This document shows positions 22,492-32,335 of a stretch of 32,833 nt of DNA, piece after piece (position 1 is the first letter of the stretch; each line of letters opens with the position of its first letter). The stretch lies in the NCBI GenBank assembly GCA_017859335.1, contig JAFMNH010000007.1, positions 1 through 32,833 of the forward strand, read 5' to 3'. The translations under genes and the position numbers were made by a program. This stretch comes from Rhodothermales bacterium. Lineage in GTDB: Bacteria > Bacteroidota > Rhodothermia > Rhodothermales > UBA10348. The notes under the pieces are model-generated. The model was not told the DNA's origin and did not search any database. It saw nothing but the letters and a program-made list of their open reading frames with translations.

Positions 22492-22808
22492 GAGGAAAAA
22501 AATTTCGGGCGGAGACGGGTGGATGTTCGTTTCAGGCCGACGCGAAAAGATACGGGTATGCAGGACAGGAACGCCGCTTAACACTGTCAAATGTTCGCTC
22601 TATTGGCCCCAAATGGACATCTTTTTGGTAGCGCTTACAGATTCTTCACAGAAACGGAGGTTGAAGTCGAGGCCCTAAAGACCCTACCATGGGGCCAGTC
22701 CCGGCGCATCCAGTGCCGCTCCCGGACGGTACGATCCACGCTTCAATGCACTTTATGTCACAGACCACGCACATGCCCGCAACAGCTGCCTCGGCCCCCG
22801 GCCAGGAC
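22492..22808. promoter_or_regulatory. Divergent region between kynU and the ilv-leu leader
   Basis: These 317 bases must hold the kynU promoter (minus) and the promoter of the branched-chain operon (plus). TATCTTTT on the minus strand, about 60-70 bases upstream of kynU, resembles the Bacteroidota -7 element but lacks a matching -33 TTG. No good plus-strand promoter was recognised. The leader reading frame may start here (ATG 22689, 22746, 22755 or 22773). Confidence 0.35.
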
Positions 22809-22904
22809 ATGCTTGGTCTGCTGCCCGTGGCCGAATCCGGTATTGGTGCACTACTGGCACCAGCGCTACGCCTACTCCCAATTCTTCTCGTGCTAGCCAC
22901 CTGA
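22809..22904 (+). CDS. Putative branched-chain amino-acid leader peptide of the ilv-leu operon
   Basis: A short frame that begins MLGLLPVAESGIG and ends LRLLPILLVLAT just before the ilvD gene. In the 31-residue form from ATG 22809, 11 residues are Leu, two Ile and two Val. The tail after residue 14 uses the leucine codon CTA four times (22851, 22866, 22872, 22893), while in ilvD I counted CTA in only about 2 of 58 leucine codons. Rare-codon runs for the regulated amino acid are the mark of leader peptides such as enteric leuL and ilvL. In-frame ATGs at 22689, 22746, 22755 and 22773 allow longer forms up to 71 residues, and no Shine-Dalgarno site selects among them. I infer that it senses charged leucyl-tRNA (and Ile/Val) for the operon starting 78 bases after its stop. 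Confidence 0.6.
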   Translation: MLGLLPVAESGIGALLAPALRLLPILLVLAT

Positions 22905-22909
22905 CGTAC

Positions 22910-22986
22910 CGGTCAACCTCGTCGCATCGCGGAATCATTTTGAATGCAGGGGTTGACTGACACCCCAAGACGATTCCTGACGATGT
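22910..22986 (+). promoter_or_regulatory. Candidate attenuator RNA with two exclusive folds, covering the ilvD start
   Basis: Fold A: 22910-22920 pairs with 22949-22959 over 11 continuous pairs (two are G-U). Fold B: GCATCG (22924-22929) pairs with CGATGT (22981-22986, one G-U), GGAATC (22931-22936) with GATTCC (22972-22977), and GGGGT (22949-22953) with ACCCC (22962-22966). Fold B buries the ilvD ATG at 22983-22985. Both folds compete for 22949-22953. A ribosome at the leader stop (22902-22904) would cover the left arm of fold A and favour fold B; one stalled at the Leu codons would leave fold A free. No U-tract follows, so control would be on translation. All pairings were found by eye. Confidence 0.5.
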
Positions 22987-24716
22987 CCAGACGCAGTGAT
23001 ACCATCACCAAAGGCTACCAGCGCGCGCCGCACCGCAGTTTGCTGCGGGCAACCGGAGTGGTTCGGTCCGATGACGATTTCGACCGCCCGTTCATTGGCA
23101 TCTGCAACTCGTACATCGACCTGATTCCGGGGCATGTGCATTTGCAACAGTTCGGTGCCCTGGTCAAGGAAGCCGTTCGGGATGCAGGTGGTCTACCCTT
23201 CGAGTTCAATACCATCGGGGTGGATGATGGGATTGCTATGGGCCATCTCGGCATGCGCTATTCCCTGCCAAGTCGGGAGATCATTGCCGATGCGGTGGAA
23301 ACCGTGGTTGAGGCCCACTGCCTAGACGCCATCATCTGCCTGCCCAACTGTGACAAGATCGTCCCGGGCATGCTCATGGGGGCGCTTCGGTGCAATGTAC
23401 CGGTCATTTTCGTTTCTGGAGGCCCGATGAAGGCAGGGCGTTTGCCTGATGGGCGCAAGGTGGATCTGGTCTCTGTTTTCGAAGGCGTCGGGCAGTATTC
23501 GAATGGCGAAATCAACGAGGTGGAGCTGGATGCACTCGAGCACCTGGCGTGCCCGACGTGTGGCTCCTGCGCCGGCATGTTCACGGCCAACTCCATGAAC
23601 TGCATCATGGAAGTGCTGGGCCTTGCGCTTCCCGGCAATGGCACCATCCTGGCCGTTGACCCGAAACGCGGCGACCTTGCGCGCAAGGCTGCATCCCGTA
23701 TCGTCGAGATGGTTGATGAAGGCCTCAGGCCACGCGATATCGTCACGGAAGCGGCATTCGACGACGCATTTGCGCTCGACATGGCCATGGGAGGATCCAC
23801 CAACACGATCCTTCACCTGCTCGCGGCCGCGCATGAGGCAGGTATCGACTACGATCTGGCGCGCATCAATGCCATGTCGGATCGGGTGCCCTATCTGTGC
23901 AAGGTGGCACCGGCCACACCGGATGTACATATGGAAGATGTGGACGCAGCGGGCGGCATCCAGGCCGTCCTGGCCGAGTTGCACGAGGCAGGTCATCTGC
24001 ATTCCGATCGGCCGACGGTGTCCGGCAAGGCCCTTGGCGAGGGCCTGGATGCCGCCCGCACCACCCGGCCTGATATCATCCGACCAGCTACGGATCCCTT
24101 CCGGACCACGGGTGGCCTGCGCATCCTCTTTGGCAACCTCGCACCCGAAGGATGTGTGATCAAGACGGGCGCCGTCTCGGACGAGATGCACATTTTCGAA
24201 GGCAGGGCGCGCATTTTTGAAAGCCAGGATGCTGCCGTGGAGGGCATTTTGAGCGGCTCGATCGAGGAGGGTACCGTTGTCATCATCCGGTACGAAGGGC
24301 CTCGAGGAGGACCGGGAATGCCGGAAATGCTCCAACCCACCTCGGCGTTGGCGGGCATGCGACTGGATCGCTCGGTGGCCATGATCACGGACGGCCGTTT
24401 TTCAGGCGGCACACGTGGGCTCAGCATCGGGCATTGCTCCCCGGAAGCAGCCGCCGGAGGACCCATCTCGCTTGTCGAAGAAGGGGATCTCATTACCATC
24501 AACCTGCACGAGAGCCGCGTGCACTGGCATGTCTCTCCCGAAGAGGAAGCCCGGCGGCGCGCGCTGCTGCCCCCCTTCGAACTGAAAATCAGTTCCGGAT
24601 ATCTGGCCCGGTACAGCCACTTGGTAACGAGCGCTTCCACCGGCGCCATTCTCCGCGTCCCCGGAGCCGATCAGCCGAAGCCGGAAAGGGCCCCGCAGGC
24701 TCAACCAACGCTTTGA
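22983..24716 (+). CDS. ilvD: Dihydroxy-acid dehydratase
   Basis: Iron-sulfur dehydratase of the third common step of valine and isoleucine synthesis, forming the 2-keto acids. ATG 22983 gives 577 residues beginning [20 protein letters not shown]; an ATG at 22944 would add 13 residues but falls inside the leader RNA structure. Cluster-ligand cysteines are C41 (GICNSY), C123 (LPNCDK) and C196 (CGSCAGMF). Other motifs are [29 protein letters not shown] and [11 protein letters not shown] near the C-terminus. It is the first enzyme gene of the eight-gene operon and the likely direct target of the leader control. Confidence 0.97.
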
Positions 24717-24782: not shown

Positions 24783-26549
24783 ATGAACACGTCAGTACAG
24801 ACTGAAAAAGCAACCACTCCGACCCCGGCCAATCCGTCGCAAGGGCTGGCCTCTGGCGCGGAAATCCTGATTCGCTCCCTTGAAGCGGAGGGTGTGGAAA
24901 TCATTTTCGGGCATCCCGGCGGCGCCATCATCGGTATCTACGATGAAATGCACCGGTTGAACCCGTCGTTCGAGCACGTCCTTGTACGCCATGAACAGGG
25001 CGGTACACATGCGGCGGAGGGCTACGCGAAGGCCACCGGCAAGGTAGGTACGGTTCTCGTCACGTCCGGCCCGGGCGCTACGAATTGTGTGACGGGTATT
25101 GCCGATGCCTACATGGATTCGATACCCATGGTCGTCTTCACGGGGCAGGTGCCTACCCACCTCATCGGGAACGATGCGTTTCAGGAGTGCGACACGATTG
25201 GTGTCACCCGAAGCATCACCAAACACAGCTTCCTGGTGCGGGACGTCAAAGATCTGGCTGAAACGGTCAAGAAAGCCTACTACATTGCTCGGACCGGTCG
25301 CCCCGGACCGGTCGTGGTGGACTTGCCGAAGGATATCCTGGCGGCGCGGGCTCCGTTTCATTACCCCTCTTCGGTGCGGATTCGTGGCTACAACCCGGTC
25401 GGTCGGGGCAATACAGAGCAGGTGCAGAAGGCGGCAACCATGATGGCCGAGGCCGAGCGTCCCCTGTTTTACGTGGGCGGAGGCACCATCATCTCAGACG
25501 GTGCGGAGCGGCTGACGGCACTGGCCCAGAAGACTGGTATTCCGGTGACGACGACCCTGCACGGACTGGGCTCTTTTCCTGAGAACGACCCCTTGTCCGT
25601 TGGCATGCTGGGCATGCACGGGACGTGGTATGCCAACATGGCGGTTCAGAATACGGACCTGCTCATTGCTGTCGGAGCGCGATTCGATGATCGGGTTACG
25701 GGTAAAATCGAAGCTTGGGCGCCCCATGCCCGTATCATCCACATTGATATCGACCCGGCCTGTATCTCCAAGAACGTCCCGGTTGATTGTCCCATTCTCG
25801 GGGATGTCAGCAAGGTCCTCGAGCAGCTTGAGCCCTTGGTACAGCCCGGAGACTACAGCGCCTGGCGCTCGCAGATCGATGCGTGGAAGAAGGAATGCCC
25901 CATGGATTTCGAGCGCGACGGAAAACTTCGCCCGCAGGAAATCATCCAGGCACTACGTGAAAAGACCGGGGGGCAGGCCGTGGTAGTGACCGATGTCGGT
26001 CAGAATCAGATGTGGGGAGCACAATTCTACTCCTACGTCCATCCACGCAGCCATATTACCTCAGGCGGCCTGGGTACGATGGGCTTCAGCTTGCCTGCCG
26101 CCATGGGCGCCGCGTTCGGTTTGCGCGGGATGGATCGGGACGTGATCTCGATCAACGGGGACGGGGGAGTGATGATGAACATCCAGGAACTCGGTGTGGC
26201 AGCTGCCCACAAGCTGCCGCTCAAGGTGGTCATTTTGAACAACAACTACCTCGGCATGGTGCGCCAGTGGCAGGAGCTGTTCCACGAAGAGCGCTACAGC
26301 CATACCAATCTGGAGCCCACGAATCCGGACTTCGTGCGTCTGGCAGAAGCCTGCGGATGCGTGGGTCTTCGCTGTGACTCGCCAGAGGACATTGCTTCGA
26401 CGCTCGAAGCCGCGTGGGAGGTCACCGATCGCCCGGTCGTCATGGAATTCTCTGTCGTCAACGAAGAGAAGGTATTTCCGATGGTACCTGCCGGTGCCGC
26501 TACCGACAACATGATCACGGCCCAGTTCAACCCTGAGGCGTGTGCCTGA
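24783..26549 (+). CDS. ilvB: Acetolactate synthase, large (catalytic) subunit
   Basis: ThDP enzyme for the first common step of branched-chain synthesis (pyruvate to acetolactate, or with 2-ketobutyrate to acetohydroxybutyrate). The ThDP-activating glutamate is E71 in RHEQGGTHAAEGYA, after the family motif IIFGHPGGAIIGIYD. The metal/ThDP site near residues 458-486 contains INGDGGVMMN and ILNNNYLGMVRQWQ. The FAD-domain motif GARFDDRVTGK is also present, so this is the anabolic, IlvN-regulated type rather than the FAD-free catabolic AlsS. At 588 residues the length is normal. The first 20 residues are Thr/Pro-rich and outside the conserved core. It follows ilvD after 66 bases and precedes ilvN. 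Confidence 0.97.
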   Translation: MNTSVQTEKATTPTPANPSQGLASGAEILIRSLEAEGVEIIFGHPGGAIIGIYDEMHRLNPSFEHVLVRHEQGGTHAAEGYAKATGKVGTVLVTSGPGATNCVTGIADAYMDSIPMVVFTGQVPTHLIGNDAFQECDTIGVTRSITKHSFLVRDVKDLAETVKKAYYIARTGRPGPVVVDLPKDILAARAPFHYPSSVRIRGYNPVGRGNTEQVQKAATMMAEAERPLFYVGGGTIISDGAERLTALAQKTGIPVTTTLHGLGSFPENDPLSVGMLGMHGTWYANMAVQNTDLLIAVGARFDDRVTGKIEAWAPHARIIHIDIDPACISKNVPVDCPILGDVSKVLEQLEPLVQPGDYSAWRSQIDAWKKECPMDFERDGKLRPQEIIQALREKTGGQAVVVTDVGQNQMWGAQFYSYVHPRSHITSGGLGTMGFSLPAAMGAAFGLRGMDRDVISINGDGGVMMNIQELGVAAAHKLPLKVVILNNNYLGMVRQWQELFHEERYSHTNLEPTNPDFVRLAEACGCVGLRCDSPEDIASTLEAAWEVTDRPVVMEFSVVNEEKVFPMVPAGAATDNMITAQFNPEACA

Positions 26550-26574
26550 GTAACCCCTCCAAACGGAGATGTCA

Positions 26575-27183
26575 ATGTCCAACGACACAACGTCCAATAA
26601 CACGACGGCCGTCATGCCCGAACTGACCCCTCAGCAACTCTTCCGCAAGCAGGCGGCAGGCGAAGCCATCCATCCGGATGCGGAAGATTCGATACATCGG
26701 CATGTACTGACGGTCCTTATCGAGAATACCATCGGAGCCCTGAACAGGGTATCCAACCTGTTTTCGCAGCGCGGTTTCAATCTGGAGAGCGTTGCCGTCG
26801 GCGAGGGGCTCAAACCCGAGCAGGCCCGATTGACGCTGGTTACAACCGGAAATGACCGCATAATTGCTCAGGTTCTCAAGCAGTTGAATGCCCTCATCGA
26901 CACCATCGAAGTAGAGGATCTGACTGAGGAGGACCATGTCGAGCGGGAGTTATGCCTGGTCAAGGTCCGCTGCACCTCGGAGGAGCGGGGGGTTCTCCTG
27001 GCCATGGTGGATGTCTTCCGCGCCAGCGTCGTCAACATTACGCCCGACAGCCTCACGTTCGAGGTTACCGGGCCGACGGCCAAGGTCAATGCATTCATCG
27101 GCGTCATGAAGGACTACGATGTGCGCGAAGTGGCCCGCAGCGGACGCGTGGCCATGCGCCGGCGCCTCGCTTTCGAACACTGA
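26575..27183 (+). CDS. ilvN: Acetolactate synthase, small (regulatory) subunit
   Basis: Regulatory partner of IlvB that raises its activity and confers valine feedback inhibition. An ACT domain follows a 40-residue N-terminal tail: [20 protein letters not shown] (about 43-62), then [14 protein letters not shown]. The C-terminal domain carries [23 protein letters not shown] and [13 protein letters not shown], as in IlvH/IlvN. ATG 26575 (202 residues) is preferred over ATG 26569 because GGAG at 26565-26568 lies six bases before it, one of the few recognisable ribosome sites in the window. It starts 25 bases after ilvB. Confidence 0.96.
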
Positions 27184-27259
27184 CAGAGCAGGCGGCCCCT
27201 GGTCCCTCACAAGAGAATCTCATCCATACACTTTACCCACCGAAGGAAACCCCACGACC

Positions 27260-28264
27260 ATGAAAATGCACTACGATGCCGACCTCGGCATTCTACAGAA
27301 CCGACGCGTTGCCGTCATCGGATTCGGCAGCCAAGGCCACGCCCATGCCCTTAACTTGCACGAAAGCGGGATCGAGGTCTGTGTCGGTCTTCGGGATGGA
27401 TCGTCATCGAAGGCGGAAGTGGAAGCCCATGGTGTACCGGTGCGCACGGTTTCGGATGCTGCGGCTTGGGCAGACGTCGTCATGATCCTCATCCCGGATC
27501 AGCACCAGAAAGCCGTGTATGAGGCGGATATCAAGGCGCACATGACACCCGGCAAGGCGCTCGGGTTCGGGCACGGATTCAATGTGCACTATGGTCAGAT
27601 CGAGCCGCCCGAAGGCGTCGACGTATTCATGGTGGCTCCCAAGTCACCCGGTCATTTGGTCAGACGAACCTATACCGAGGGCCGCGGCGTGCCCTGTCTC
27701 GTTGCCGTAGCGCAGGACGCTTCCGGTGGCGCCATGGACCTGGCCCTCAGTTGGGCCAAGGGCATCGGAGGAACCCGCGCCGGCGTCATCGAGACCAACT
27801 TCAAGGATGAGACGGAGACCGACCTGTTCGGGGAGCAGGCTGTCCTGTGCGGTGGCAGCGAGGCCCTCATCAAGGCCGGATTCGAGACCCTCGTGGAAGC
27901 CGGGTATTCCGAGGAACTGGCCTACTTCGAATGCCTGCATGAGCTCAAGCTGATCGTGGATCTATACTACGAGGGCGGACTCGAGGCCATGAACAAATCT
28001 GTTTCGGACACCGCAGAATACGGTGGTTACTCCCGGGGATCGCGCGTCATTACGGATGCCGTGAAAGGCGAGATGAAAACCATCCTGTCCGAAATCCAGA
28101 GTGGCCAGTTTGCCAAGGAGTGGATTGATGAATGTGAAGCCGGGTGGCCCAACATGTCCGAATTACGCAATGCCTCCGTCACCCATCCCATGGAGCGGGT
28201 GGGGAAAAAACTGCGAAGCATGATGTCCTGGCTGCGACGGGACGAACCTACCCCGTCTGCCTGA
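27260..28264 (+). CDS. ilvC: Ketol-acid reductoisomerase, class I
   Basis: Second common step: isomerises and reduces acetolactate to dihydroxyisovalerate (and the isoleucine analogue) with Mg and NADPH. ATG 27260 gives [20 protein letters not shown] and 334 residues, the class I length; an upstream in-frame start at 27119 would overlap ilvN and is rejected. The Rossmann motif is [13 protein letters not shown] (21-33). The coenzyme loop GLRDGSSSK (43-51) has Arg and Ser residues that favour NADPH. The active-site histidine lies in FGHGFNVHY (103-111), and metal ligands are in [14 protein letters not shown] and the C-terminal [13 protein letters not shown]. It is 76 bases after ilvN. Confidence 0.97.
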
Positions 28265-28304
28265 GTTCGTGGTGCCACCCCGTCCTTCACCTCTCCCACT
28301 TACC

Positions 28305-29387
28305 ATGTCCGACTCAATCCGCATTGCACTCTTGCCAGGCGATGGCATCGGCCCCGAAGTCATCGAGGCTGCCCGGCAGGTTGCCGATCTGGCAGCTGGC
28401 ATGGCGGGAGTGTCGATTGAATGGGAAGAGCATCCGTTTGGGGGTGCTGCCATTGATGCCGCCGGCGAGCCTTTCCCGGAGTCTACCCGCGCTGCCTGTA
28501 TGGCAGCCGATGCCATCCTGCTCGGTGCCATCGGTGGCCCCGCATGGGATGGTATCGAGCCGGAGCGACGGCCGGAGAAAGGTCTCCTTTCCTTGCGCCA
28601 GTCTTTGGGAGCATTCGCCAACCTTCGACCGGTACAGGTTCCCGGTTCATTGGCGCACCTCTCCGTGTTGCCACAGGAGAACGTGGCTGGCACGGACCTT
28701 CTGGTTGTACGTGAGCTGACGGGCGGGATTTATTTCGGGGAGCCTCGGCAGTACAGTGAAGAGGAGGCCTTTGACACCATGCGTTACACTGCACAGGAGG
28801 TGGACCGGATTGCCCGCGTGGCATTCGATTCGGCACGTCAGCGCAGTGGCCGCATCGTTTCTGTCGACAAGGCCAACGTGCTGGCATCATCGCGCTTGTG
28901 GCGCCATCGGGTAACCCGACTTCATGAGACGGAGTACGGCGATGTTATCCTCGACCATTTGTACGTGGACAATGCAGCGATGCAGCTGGTGCGGGACCCG
29001 AAAGCGTTCGACGTTATCCTGACGGCCAATCTGTTCGGAGACATCCTGTCTGACCTCGCATCTACGCTGGCCGGATCCCTCGGTGTGCTGCCATCGGCTT
29101 CCGTGGGCGGTACAACACCGCTTTTTGAGCCGGTCCATGGAAGCGCTCCCGATCTGGCGGGGCAGAACAAGGCGAACCCGGTGGCTGCGATGCTGAGTGC
29201 TGCTATGCTGTTCGATACCGTCGGGTATCCCGAGACGGGTACACTGATTCGTCGTGCCGTGGATGCTACCTTGGCAGCCGGCCATATGACAGCAGACCTG
29301 GCTGTCGATGGTGTATCCACGTCGGCCTTCACGGATCGGGTCTGCCAGCAACTTGAAACGATTGAATTACCACTTTCCGCTACCTGA
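28305..29387 (+). CDS. leuB: 3-isopropylmalate dehydrogenase
   Basis: NAD-dependent oxidative decarboxylase, the last leucine-specific step before transamination (3-isopropylmalate to 4-methyl-2-oxopentanoate). ATG 28305 gives MSDSIRIALLPGDGIGPEVI and 360 residues, the standard length. Conserved motifs are LLPGDGIGPE (9-18), RELTGGIYFGEPR, the substrate-binding SVDKANVLASSRLWR, the metal-binding NLFGDILSDLAS and the NAD site EPVHGSAPDLAGQNKANP. In many genomes leuB lies after leuA and leuCD; here it precedes leuA. It follows ilvC by 40 bases, and its TGA is directly followed by the GTG that may start leuA. Confidence 0.96.
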   Translation: MSDSIRIALLPGDGIGPEVIEAARQVADLAAGMAGVSIEWEEHPFGGAAIDAAGEPFPESTRAACMAADAILLGAIGGPAWDGIEPERRPEKGLLSLRQSLGAFANLRPVQVPGSLAHLSVLPQENVAGTDLLVVRELTGGIYFGEPRQYSEEEAFDTMRYTAQEVDRIARVAFDSARQRSGRIVSVDKANVLASSRLWRHRVTRLHETEYGDVILDHLYVDNAAMQLVRDPKAFDVILTANLFGDILSDLASTLAGSLGVLPSASVGGTTPLFEPVHGSAPDLAGQNKANPVAAMLSAAMLFDTVGYPETGTLIRRAVDATLAAGHMTADLAVDGVSTSAFTDRVCQQLETIELPLSAT

Positions 29388-29393
29388 GTGACC

Positions 29394-31010
29394 ATGCCGA
29401 ACGACCGCGTCATCATATTCGATACCTCCCTGCGTGATGGAGAGCAAGCTCCCGGCGCAGCCATGACCGTGCCGGAAAAGGTGCAGCTTGCCCAGCAGCT
29501 TGCCCGGCTGGGCGTGGATGTCATCGAGGCTGGTTTTCCAATCTCTTCGCCGGGGCAGTTCGAGGCCGTTCGGCGCATCGTTGCCGAGGTGGAGGGTCCG
29601 ACCATCTGCGCCTTGGCGCGGGCCAAAACGGACGATATCGATGCAGCTGGGCGGGCGCTCGATGGCGGCAAAAGGACGCGTATCCATACGTTCATCGCCA
29701 CGAGCGACATCCACCTCGAGAGCAAGTTCGCAGACCCCCGATACGGGCAGACGCTGGAAGAAAAACGGGACACGGTGCTCGAGATGGCGGTGAGTGCCGT
29801 TCGTCATGCCTTGACCTACACCGATGATGTGGAGTTCAGCGCCGAGGATGCCGGACGAACGGATACCGCCTATCTGTGCCGTGTCGTGAAGGCGGTGATC
29901 GATGCCGGCGCTACGACCATCAACATACCCGACACGACGGGGTACTGTATTTCGGATGAGTATGCCTCACTCATCCGGACGGTCATAGAAGAAGTCGATG
30001 CGCCGCCCTCGGTCATCTTCTCCACCCATTGCCACGACGATCTTGGATTGGCTGTGGCCAACTCATTATCCGGCCTGCAAGCAGGAGCCCGTCAGATTGA
30101 ATGCACGATCAACGGGATAGGGGAGCGTGCCGGGAATGCGGCCCTCGAGGAAGTTGTCATGGCGCTCAATGTGCGGAAAGATCATTTCGGCTTGCACACG
30201 GGCGTCGATGCCACGCTGCTCTACGAGACCTCTCGCATGGTGTCCACTTTCACCGGCTTCAGGGTGCAGCCCAACAAAGCCATCATCGGAAAGAATGCCT
30301 TTGCCCACGAGGCGGGGATCCATCAGGATGGGGTTCTGAAGAATCGGGCAACGTACGAGATCATGCGGGCCGAGGACGTAGGCCAGGATGCAGAATCCAT
30401 CCGGCTCGGCCGGCACTCGGGGCGTCACGGCCTGTTTTCCCGTCTGGATCGGCTCGGAATCCGCATCGATGCCTCGGACCGGGCGGCTGTCTATGCAGCG
30501 TTTGTGGAACTGGCCGACCGGAAAAAGGAGATCAACGATTCAGATTTGATCAACCTCTTCCATCGGGAAGAGGAAACATCGGAAACCCCCCACTATTCGC
30601 TGGAGACCTTCCACGTAGCCGTCGGATCCGGTCAGGATCCGGAGGCTACCGTTGCCGTCCGGAATCTTCAGGACCAGAGCCTGGTGAAGAAGAAGGCAAC
30701 CGGAGACGGACCGATCGATGCGCTCTACAGCGCTATCAACCACGCGGTCAATGAAGGCCATGACCTGGTCAACTATACCATTCGATCTGTTTCAGAAGGA
30801 TCGGATTCCTACGGAGAGGTCAGCGTATTGGTAGGCCTTGGTGGGCCGCTTTTTGCCGGCAAGGCCAGCAGCACCGATGTGATCGAGGCATCGGCACAGG
30901 CCTACATGAATGCGCTCAACTCGCTGGCAGCGTACCGCTCGGACAAGGAATCGATTGCCTTTGTCGGATCCGGTATCATGCAGGCCTTCGACAGCCCGAA
31001 GGAGCACTAG
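29394..31010 (+). CDS. leuA: 2-isopropylmalate synthase
   Basis: First committed step of leucine synthesis, condensing acetyl-CoA with 2-ketoisovalerate. The catalytic TIM barrel opens with FDTSLRDGEQAPGAAM, and the metal-binding histidines lie in STHCHDDLGLAVANS. Further motifs are GIGERAGNAALEEV and KNAFAHEAGIHQDGVLK. The C-terminal regulatory domain (from about residue 400) is complete, so leucine feedback inhibition is expected. ATG 29394 gives 538 residues; a GTG at 29388 immediately after the leuB stop is an alternative. At this length it belongs to the standard bacterial LeuA type 1, not to the shorter homocitrate or citramalate synthases. Confidence 0.95.
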   Translation: MPNDRVIIFDTSLRDGEQAPGAAMTVPEKVQLAQQLARLGVDVIEAGFPISSPGQFEAVRRIVAEVEGPTICALARAKTDDIDAAGRALDGGKRTRIHTFIATSDIHLESKFADPRYGQTLEEKRDTVLEMAVSAVRHALTYTDDVEFSAEDAGRTDTAYLCRVVKAVIDAGATTINIPDTTGYCISDEYASLIRTVIEEVDAPPSVIFSTHCHDDLGLAVANSLSGLQAGARQIECTINGIGERAGNAALEEVVMALNVRKDHFGLHTGVDATLLYETSRMVSTFTGFRVQPNKAIIGKNAFAHEAGIHQDGVLKNRATYEIMRAEDVGQDAESIRLGRHSGRHGLFSRLDRLGIRIDASDRAAVYAAFVELADRKKEINDSDLINLFHREEETSETPHYSLETFHVAVGSGQDPEATVAVRNLQDQSLVKKKATGDGPIDALYSAINHAVNEGHDLVNYTIRSVSEGSDSYGEVSVLVGLGGPLFAGKASSTDVIEASAQAYMNALNSLAAYRSDKESIAFVGSGIMQAFDSPKEH

Positions 31011-31036
31011 TCGCACGCACTACGATACATCACACC

Positions 31037-32335
31037 ATGGGACAGACCATCACCCAGAAAATACTTGCCCGCCACGCCGGTCGTGACCGCGTTGCCCCCG
31101 GAGACAATATCTGGGTGGATGTGGATACGCTCATGACGCACGATGTCTGCGGTCCGCCGACGATTGGCATCTTCAAGCGGGAATTTGGCGAGGACGCCAA
31201 GGTTTGGGACCCTGACAAATTGGTCATCCTGCCTGATCACTACATCTTTACGGAAGACCCGCATGCCCGCCGTAACATAGAAATCCTGCGCACGTTTGCG
31301 GCAGAGCACAACCTCAAGCACTATTTCGATGTCGGCACGGCCCGATACAAGGGTGTGTGCCACGTTGCCCTGGCCGAAGAGGGCTTCAATCGACCAGGTA
31401 CCGTGCTTTTCGGCACGGACAGCCATTCATGCACGTCGGGCGCGTTCGGCATGTTTTCGACCGGCGTCGGCAACACGGACGCCGCGCTCATCATGGGCAC
31501 GGGCAAGATCTGGGTGAAAGTACCTGAGACCATGCGCTTCGTATTCGAAGGTACGCTGCCGCCGTGGCTCATGGCCAAGGACCTTATTCTTAGTGTCATC
31601 GGAGACATCGGCTTCGAAGGGGGTACGTATCGGGCCCTGGAATTCGATGGGGAGGCGGTTTTCGACCTGTCCATGGAAGAGCGCATGACGCTGACGAACA
31701 TGGCCATTGAGGCCGGTGGCAAGAACGGCGTGATTGCCGCTGACCAAAAGACTGTTGACTACGTGACAGCCCGAACCGAAGCCCCGTTCGAGATGGTCAC
31801 ATCGGATGCCGATGCGCGCTACGCGTACGAAAAAGTCTACGATGTCTCGACCATGGAACCGGTCGTGGCCAAGCCGCACCGGCCAGACAATCGGGCCACG
31901 GTGTCCGAGGTCGCCGGCACCAAGCTCGACCGGGCCTACATCGGTAGTTGTACCGGTGGGAAGTACGAGGATTTCCTGGCTGCCGCACAGATCCTCGAGG
32001 GAAACCGTGTGCAGGTGGACACCTACGTAGTGCCTGCCAGCACGGAGGTCACCAAGCAACTCCGGGAGAAGACCCTCAATGGAAAGACGCTTTGGCAGGT
32101 CTTCCTGGATGCCGGCTGCAAGATGGGGCATGCCTCCTGTGGAGCATGCCTTGGAGGCCCCGTGGACACTTTTGGTCGAACGCATGGTACGGAGGTCGTC
32201 ATCTCCACGACGAACCGGAATTTCCCTGGTCGCATGGGCTCCAAGCAGTCCGCCGTATACCTTGCCTCACCCCTGACCGTGGCGGCTTCGGCCCTGCATG
32301 GCGAAATCACCGATCCGCGTTCCGTTCTCGTATGA
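31037..32335 (+). CDS. leuC: 3-isopropylmalate dehydratase, large subunit
   Basis: Aconitase-family iron-sulfur subunit that isomerises 2- to 3-isopropylmalate together with LeuD. The cluster ligands are C305 in GSCTGGKYED and C368 and C371 in SCGACLGGP. Substrate-region motifs are VDTLMTHDVCGPPTIG, LPDHYIFTEDP and FGTDSHSCTSGAFG. At 432 residues it is of the shorter archaeal-like LeuC type (the enterobacterial type is about 466), and GSCTGG replaces the more common GSCTNG. Homoaconitase or other homologues cannot be excluded by sequence, but the leu operon setting makes leucine synthesis the clear choice. Confidence 0.95.
   Translation: MGQTITQKILARHAGRDRVAPGDNIWVDVDTLMTHDVCGPPTIGIFKREFGEDAKVWDPDKLVILPDHYIFTEDPHARRNIEILRTFAAEHNLKHYFDVGTARYKGVCHVALAEEGFNRPGTVLFGTDSHSCTSGAFGMFSTGVGNTDAALIMGTGKIWVKVPETMRFVFEGTLPPWLMAKDLILSVIGDIGFEGGTYRALEFDGEAVFDLSMEERMTLTNMAIEAGGKNGVIAADQKTVDYVTARTEAPFEMVTSDADARYAYEKVYDVSTMEPVVAKPHRPDNRATVSEVAGTKLDRAYIGSCTGGKYEDFLAAAQILEGNRVQVDTYVVPASTEVTKQLREKTLNGKTLWQVFLDAGCKMGHASCGACLGGPVDTFGRTHGTEVVISTTNRNFPGRMGSKQSAVYLASPLTVAASALHGEITDPRSVLV

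Follow-up and report, generated by a model that had tools for sequence, protein, structure and literature searches.

In enteric bacteria, the leu, ilv and his operons are governed by attenuators whose leader peptides carry runs of codons for the regulated amino acid, the rare CUA among them. The position of the ribosome on such a leader picks between RNA helices, and an intrinsic terminator with a U-run stands at the end. Leader peptides as regulators of amino acid operons are textbook material for enterics, but are little described in the Bacteroidota and the neighbouring phyla.

Other described systems vary in architecture. In Staphylococcus aureus, a leucine-rich attenuator peptide belongs to ilvD, with a terminator stem and a poly-U stretch 52 nt past the stop codon of the peptide (PMC5794164). 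The ilvB-II peptides of Corynebacterium are 15-17 aa long, and their motif ends in an intrinsic terminator (PMC10272879). The actinobacterial LEU element, located before leuA, is a pseudoknot in which a run of Leu codons is paired with the Shine-Dalgarno box (PMC1262725). Within the Bacteroidota, a passage on the amino-acid operons of Flavobacterium psychrophilum speaks of 'strong clues' of leader peptide attenuation (PMC9723704).

The ilv-leu operon and its leader reading frame

The window, the whole 32,833-nucleotide stretch of Rhodothermales DNA analysed here, contains an ilv-leu operon headed by a short reading frame. A kynureninase gene lies on the opposite strand, upstream of the leader. 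The features of the operon and of its upstream region are as follows.

22627-22638, forward strand: palindrome resembling a LacI-family operator (GGTAGCGCTTAC), 5' of the promoter; position kept in aligned sister species
22661-22690, forward strand: putative promoter, TTGAAG (22661-22666), 18 bp, TACCAT (22685-22690), with transcription start at about 22697; from conservation
22746-22904, forward strand: leader peptide ORF, 52 aa, MHFMSQTTHMPATAASAPGQDMLGLLPVAESGIGALLAPALRLLPILLVLAT followed by the stop codon; from the re-read sequence and counterparts in relatives
22836-22901, forward strand: control region, the last 22 codons, Leu/Ile/Val-rich with four CTA; from frame-specific L/I/V content and conserved CTA enrichment
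22983-24716, forward strand: ilvD, encoding dihydroxy-acid dehydratase (TIGR00110, 792.8 bits), which heads the operon
24783-32335, forward strand: ilvB, ilvN/H, ilvC, leuB, leuA and leuC, closely spaced, downstream of ilvD; from the gene annotation search

A first reading, made from the sequence only, had described a frame at 22809-22904 with a Leu/Ile/Val tail and an excess of CTA codons. Re-reading of the sequence confirmed that the frame closed by TGA at 22902-22904 is real, with LRLLPILLVLAT as its C-terminal end. In the 31-residue form, MLGLLPVAESGIGALLAPALRLLPILLVLAT, the 11 Leu codons comprise four CTA, two CTT, two CTC and three CTG, and this CTA share of 4/11 compares with 11/806 (1.4%) in 21 window genes, taken as a proxy for the whole genome (binomial p=1.1e-5). 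The tail and the CTA excess were thus both upheld. For ilvD (22983-24716), the ratio implied by the earlier count of about two CTA in 58 Leu codons was sound, and the Leu total was corrected to 52 upon recounting (2/52).

While the stop codon and the tail of the frame stood, the start at 22809 probably did not. The true leader start is probably ATG 22746, giving 52 aa. This ATG is the first start 3' of the putative transcription start, and its position matches the leader starts in sister species, among which only L003 has a counterpart to ATG 22809. A longer form from ATG 22689 (71 aa) was rejected: the codon is within the conserved -10 box TACCAT (22685-22690) and, given the transcription start near 22697, would lie upstream of the message. 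For ilvD, the start at 22983 is conserved. An in-frame ATG at 22944 was discarded as the ilvD start, since this frame has a shift in L003 and a stop in L004.

A GTTG-(~18 nt)-CCCTACCAT box is invariant across seven species of the window's genus. A consensus promoter scan of the window did not call the conserved TTGAAG/TACCAT promoter, and the assignment therefore rests on conservation. The LacI-family-like palindrome GGWAGCGCTWMC, directly 5' of the ilv-leu promoter, also occurs in relatives (L166, L167 and L168, near 1501), and boxes similar to that at 22627-22638 are also present in other relatives. The palindrome has four distinct sites in the genome, the other three being near glgB/glgX, pyruvate phosphate dikinase and a NAD-dependent epimerase/dehydrogenase gene. 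A protein may bind at 22627-22638, and the palindrome suggests a carbon-status regulator acting on the ilv-leu operon, with site counts not above those of a reversed-pattern control.

Conservation and codon selection in relatives

Upstream regions were collected through IlvD searches in relatives and a scan of named genomes. A short frame with a Leu/Ile/Val tail is found 5' of ilvD in 25 Rhodothermia loci, where the distance from the leader stop codon to the start of IlvD homology is 65-105 nt (reaching roughly 160 nt in other phyla). In the named scan, the leader frame also turned up in MAGs with the titles Ignavibacteria, Melioribacter, Calditrichia/Caldithrix and Marinimicrobia; it was nearly absent from the Chloroflexi, Aquificota, Bacillus and other loci returned by the same query. 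Genomes of family f12 (L026, L113, L114) have the same ilvD type without the leader peptide, another frame ending directly 5' of the gene. Over 40 leaders, the L/I/V content of the last 22 codons is 66% in frame, versus 19% and 9% in the other frames. The N-terminal half of the leader has an ordinary composition. In Bacteroidota family f28 (L160, L161, L163, L164), the tails before ilvD are of the Val/Ile type, such as IVVTLVITQVSIVVR.

In the Rhodothermia, CTA accounts for 20% of the tail Leu codons, versus 4% in ilvD of the same genomes (p=3.6e-12), and the corresponding shares in other phyla are 20% and 5% (p=3.4e-6). Twenty further loci from a phylum-wide search of the Bacteroidota, including a few Rhodothermia-distant Ignavibacteria counted earlier under other names, gave 45% in the tails versus 3% in ilvD (p=1e-30); these p-values overstate independence, because related sequences were pooled. 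TTA and TTG are shunned in the tails, even in AT-rich genomes, and among the Ile codons ATT is favoured over ATC. The CTA bias and the avoidance of TTA/TTG would fit the sensing of CTN-reading Leu tRNAs. The comparison of relatives proposed in the sequence-only reading therefore turned out in its favour: a CTA-enriched short frame with C-terminal Leu/Ile/Val is conserved before ilvD, while its N-terminal residues drift.

A conserved helix past the leader stop codon

The RNA downstream of the leader contains strands that can form alternative helices with each other.

22837-22842, forward strand: possible strand 1 (CCGGTA), complement of TACCGG at 22907-22912; weak here
22910-22920, forward strand: strand 2, partner of strand 3 in the 2:3 helix (GGTCAACC core at 22911-22918), 5 nt past the stop codon; from alignment and folding
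22949-22959, forward strand: strand 3 (GGGGTTGACTG), partner of strand 2 or strand 4; from alignment and folding
22962-22966, forward strand: strand 4 (ACCCC), local hairpin with 22949-22953; moderate, own versus other genera p=0.003

The consensus strand 2 after the stop codon, GGTCAAYCC, pairs with GGGGTTGACC about 30-60 nt downstream. In a MAFFT alignment of 24 sequences, this 2:3 helix is 96.6% paired, versus at most 65% when it is slid by 1-3 columns, and five pairs are altered on both sides in a compensatory manner. The helix is rebuilt with other sequences in L027 (GTCCACC:GGTGGAC), L076 (GCCAGAGGC:GCCTCTGGC) and L095 (GCGCCAGAGATC:GATCTCTGGCGC), and likewise in L103. The exceptions to the model are L019 and L033/L112, in which the peptide is present and the 2:3 helix is weak or absent. 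The f28 loci have a different 2:3-like helix, for example GCCGCTCCC:GGGAACGGC in L160, and L163 and L164 have U-runs downstream. Many of the loci L145-L159 share a motif similar to TATATCTGAAGGTTTTT in the spacer that separates strand 3 from the ilvD start.

The other two strands are less sharply defined. In relatives, strand 1 (GTTGACC/ATTGACC/ATCGACC, within the ORF) co-varies with strand 2 (2/2000 permutations, relatedness not removed). In the window's genome, strand 1 is degenerate and the pairing of strands 1 and 2 is not significant (54/100 shuffles). The 3:4 pairing reaches 72.5% on the plain alignment, where it is blurred through loop-length shifts.

Predicted sequestration of the ilvD start codon

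A further stem involves the loop of the 2:3 helix and the ilvD start.

22920-22936, forward strand: sequestor 5' arm (CGTCGCATCGCGGAATC), within the 2:3 loop; from folding, significant in genera g1 and g6 only
22972-22993, forward strand: sequestor 3' arm (GATTCCTGACGATGTCCAGACG), holding the ilvD start codon 22983-22985; from folding and the openness comparison

In the window's genus, CATCGCGGAATC in the 2:3 loop is predicted to pair with GATTCCTGACGATG, which bears the ilvD start. The sequestor of genus g6, GCATATC:GATACGC, ends just 5' of the AUG. Pairing with the own strand exceeds pairing with strands of other genera (p=0.002), with significance restricted to g1 and g6. Locus by locus, the sequestor is significant (p<=0.05) in 8/23 loci, and the burial of the start codon is not clear outside these two genera. 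The mark of a translational attenuator, a default fold that hides the start of the next gene, is thus found in the window and in g1 and g6, and is not significant in most other genera. Attenuators of the erm type respond to an antibiotic or to arrest of the nascent peptide, whereas the codons of the leader suggest tRNA charging as the signal.

According to the predicted folds, the 2:3 helix and the sequestor are mutually exclusive, with the former enclosing the 5' arm of the latter. In the growing RNA up to 22985, 2:3 is the preferred fold, at -21.2 kcal/mol. Synthesis of the AUG region and of the next nucleotides tips the balance to the sequestor (-29.7 free versus -24.3 with 2:3 enforced). 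This order of folding during RNA growth indicates that the choice of fold would be kinetic, decided by the ribosome cover on strand 2. Over 23 loci, the predicted openness of the ilvD start is 0.58 in the 2:3 state versus 0.36 with the ribosome at the stop codon (p=1.8e-4). The fold of the window RNA is barely better than those of shuffled sequences (z=-1.4). The general attributes of an attenuator are present, namely a short ORF with end-product codons and exclusive downstream folds that can be selected by the position of the ribosome.

Distribution of the element and its target gene

A covariance model, R1, gave a single hit in the genome of the window and was run against 245 genomes of the class. 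In G097, G072 and G068 (families f13 and f15), the element is located upstream of ilvB, not ilvD; the G068 match is weak (E=0.0125), with few L/I/V residues in the peptide tail. Loci L133, L140 and L142 (reverse strand, near 1500) come from families with a different IlvD type, and in them the leader helix lies 5' of ilvB, with the start of the gene at least 140 nt downstream. At the ilvB loci, direct sequestration is unlikely because of this distance. The weak matches G122 and G074 were rejected upon inspection, being without a leader peptide, and those in G111, G238 and G151 were left out of the counts. A nucleotide search of plasmids gave no matches.

Proposed mechanism and alternatives

The conserved CTA-rich L/I/V frame, together with a fitting and conserved RNA architecture, supports the leader-peptide interpretation originally put forward from the sequence, and we regard leader-peptide sensing upstream of ilvDBNC-leuBAC as nearly certain. 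The proposal that leucine is what is sensed fits the dominance of Leu in this species. The tails of relatives carry all three amino acids (L 33%, I 19% and V 13% over 40 tails), and the leader therefore probably senses Leu, Ile and Val.

We consider it reasonably likely that the leader is a ribosome-mediated attenuator that regulates ilvDBNC-leuBAC by sensing charged Leu (and Ile/Val) tRNA, with the sequestor as its read-out; for the read-out taken by itself, the balance tips towards translation. The translation of the ORF, the stalling of the ribosome, the direction of control and the translational read-out, all of which we infer, would combine as follows. The leader ORF at 22746-22904 would be translated and, when charged tRNA is scarce, the ribosome would stall within the L/I/V tail, leaving strand 2 exposed to pair with strand 3 once the latter is transcribed. 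Because 2:3 encloses the 5' arm of the sequestor, the sequestor could not close, the ilvD start would be open and the operon would be expressed. With charged tRNA in good supply, the ribosome would move on to the stop codon and cover strand 2, strand 3 would pair with strand 4, and the 22920-22936:22972-22993 stem would shut over the ilvD AUG, lowering the translation of ilvD and probably, via polarity, that of the rest of the operon too. Many relatives have a strand 1 within the leader frame that could re-pair with strand 2, thereby keeping the operon off.

The same leader sensor could instead have a transcriptional read-out, if stalling governed not the translation of ilvD but termination, Rho- or pause-dependent, within the 78-nt spacer. 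The occurrence of the leader and the 2:3 helix where the first gene starts at least 140 nt downstream agrees with this possibility, as do the U-runs present past strand 3 in several other Bacteroidota loci, owing to which the read-out may differ by lineage. However, a terminator scan found no intrinsic terminator in the window, and no T-run of at least four lies between strand 3 and ilvD in the Rhodothermia (0/23 loci), which excludes an intrinsic terminator in these 23 loci. The GC hairpin and subsequent U-run of a classical transcription attenuator are accordingly seen neither in the window nor in these loci, while the burial of the start codon is significant in the window's genus. We consider a transcriptional read-out rather unlikely. 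Without an intrinsic terminator, the enteric picture of transcription attenuation is not transferable, and start-codon sequestration fits the window's genus better.

A structured leader 5' of a biosynthetic operon might also be a ligand-binding riboswitch, a T-box or a protein-binding leader, with the ORF being incidental. This explanation is very improbable, given that an Rfam scan of the window yielded no matches at the gathering threshold or at E<=5, including Leu_leader, ilvB-OMG and T-box, and that conservation is found in the codons and in two short strands, with no aptamer-like core. Still less credit is due to the idea that the product of the ORF is a small hydrophobic (membrane) peptide with a function of its own, encoded upstream of ilvD by chance. 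Its roughly 20 consecutive, mostly hydrophobic residues would suit such a peptide, but the 40 tails are composed nearly entirely of L, I and V plus S, G and A, with Phe at 0.3% and Met, Tyr and Cys absent; beyond L/I/V there is no sequence conservation, the synonymous CTA bias would be needless, and the ORF occurs together with a conserved RNA helix and with ilv genes. A functionless frame in a GC-rich spacer with some Leu codons, as the plentiful mechanical ORFs of this GC-rich window and the ambiguous leader start might suggest, is refuted by the comparative data, namely conservation over several phyla, CTA p-values of 1e-12 to 1e-30 and compensatory helix changes.

On a wider scale, we tentatively entertain, at a little short of even confidence, an ancient BCAA attenuator common to the Bacteroidota (Rhodothermia, Ignavibacteria and others), Calditrichota and Marinimicrobiota. 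Its sensor, made up of the 2:3 helix and a long peptide whose L/I/V tail is rich in CTA, would have been kept, while the output (start-codon sequestration or termination, according to lineage) and the target (ilvD or ilvB, depending on the first gene of the operon) would be interchangeable.

Comparison with known systems

Leader-peptide attenuation before ilv genes is already known, and the present version is little described in the Bacteroidota and neighbouring phyla. A published description of an ilvD leader like that of the window was not found in the open-access papers searched, which is weak evidence, being limited to these sources. The leader is widespread and under strong codon-level selection, with tail CTA reaching 45% versus 3% in ilvD, and has no Rfam model; its alignment can serve as the seed for a covariance model. 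In the window's genus, the leader appears to act on the start of translation, not on a terminator. It offers a test of how tRNA charging is coupled to operon expression where mRNAs are often without Shine-Dalgarno sites.

Like the enteric leu, ilv and his leaders, the window leader combines runs of regulated codons, including CUA, with alternative helices chosen by the ribosome. The enteric systems end in a terminator with a U-run, whereas the window leader has none, is about 50 aa long and has a mixed Leu/Ile/Val tail of 20-25 codons. The F. psychrophilum passage mentions neither an ilvD leader nor a mechanism, nor does it speak of wide conservation (PMC9723704). The S. aureus leader may be likened to the present one by its features alone, not by kinship: both are located directly 5' of ilvD and the ilv-leu operon and contain Leu and Ile codons, but S. 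aureus employs a poly-U terminator, while the window has a predicted sequestor over the ilvD start without poly-U (PMC5794164). The Corynebacterium ilvB-II/ilvB-OMG uORFs share with the window a BCAA-rich upstream ORF and a conserved structure before an ilv gene; ilvB-II has a short peptide and an intrinsic terminator, and the Rfam models do not match the window leader (PMC10272879). In both the LEU element and the window, a leader peptide with a Leu run is present, and the initiation region of the following gene is within reach of the RNA. However, the codon run itself pairs in the LEU element, forming a pseudoknot with the leuA Shine-Dalgarno box, while in the window the partner strands are past the stop codon, a separate strand outside the ORF is predicted to pair over the AUG, and the gene is ilvD (PMC1262725).
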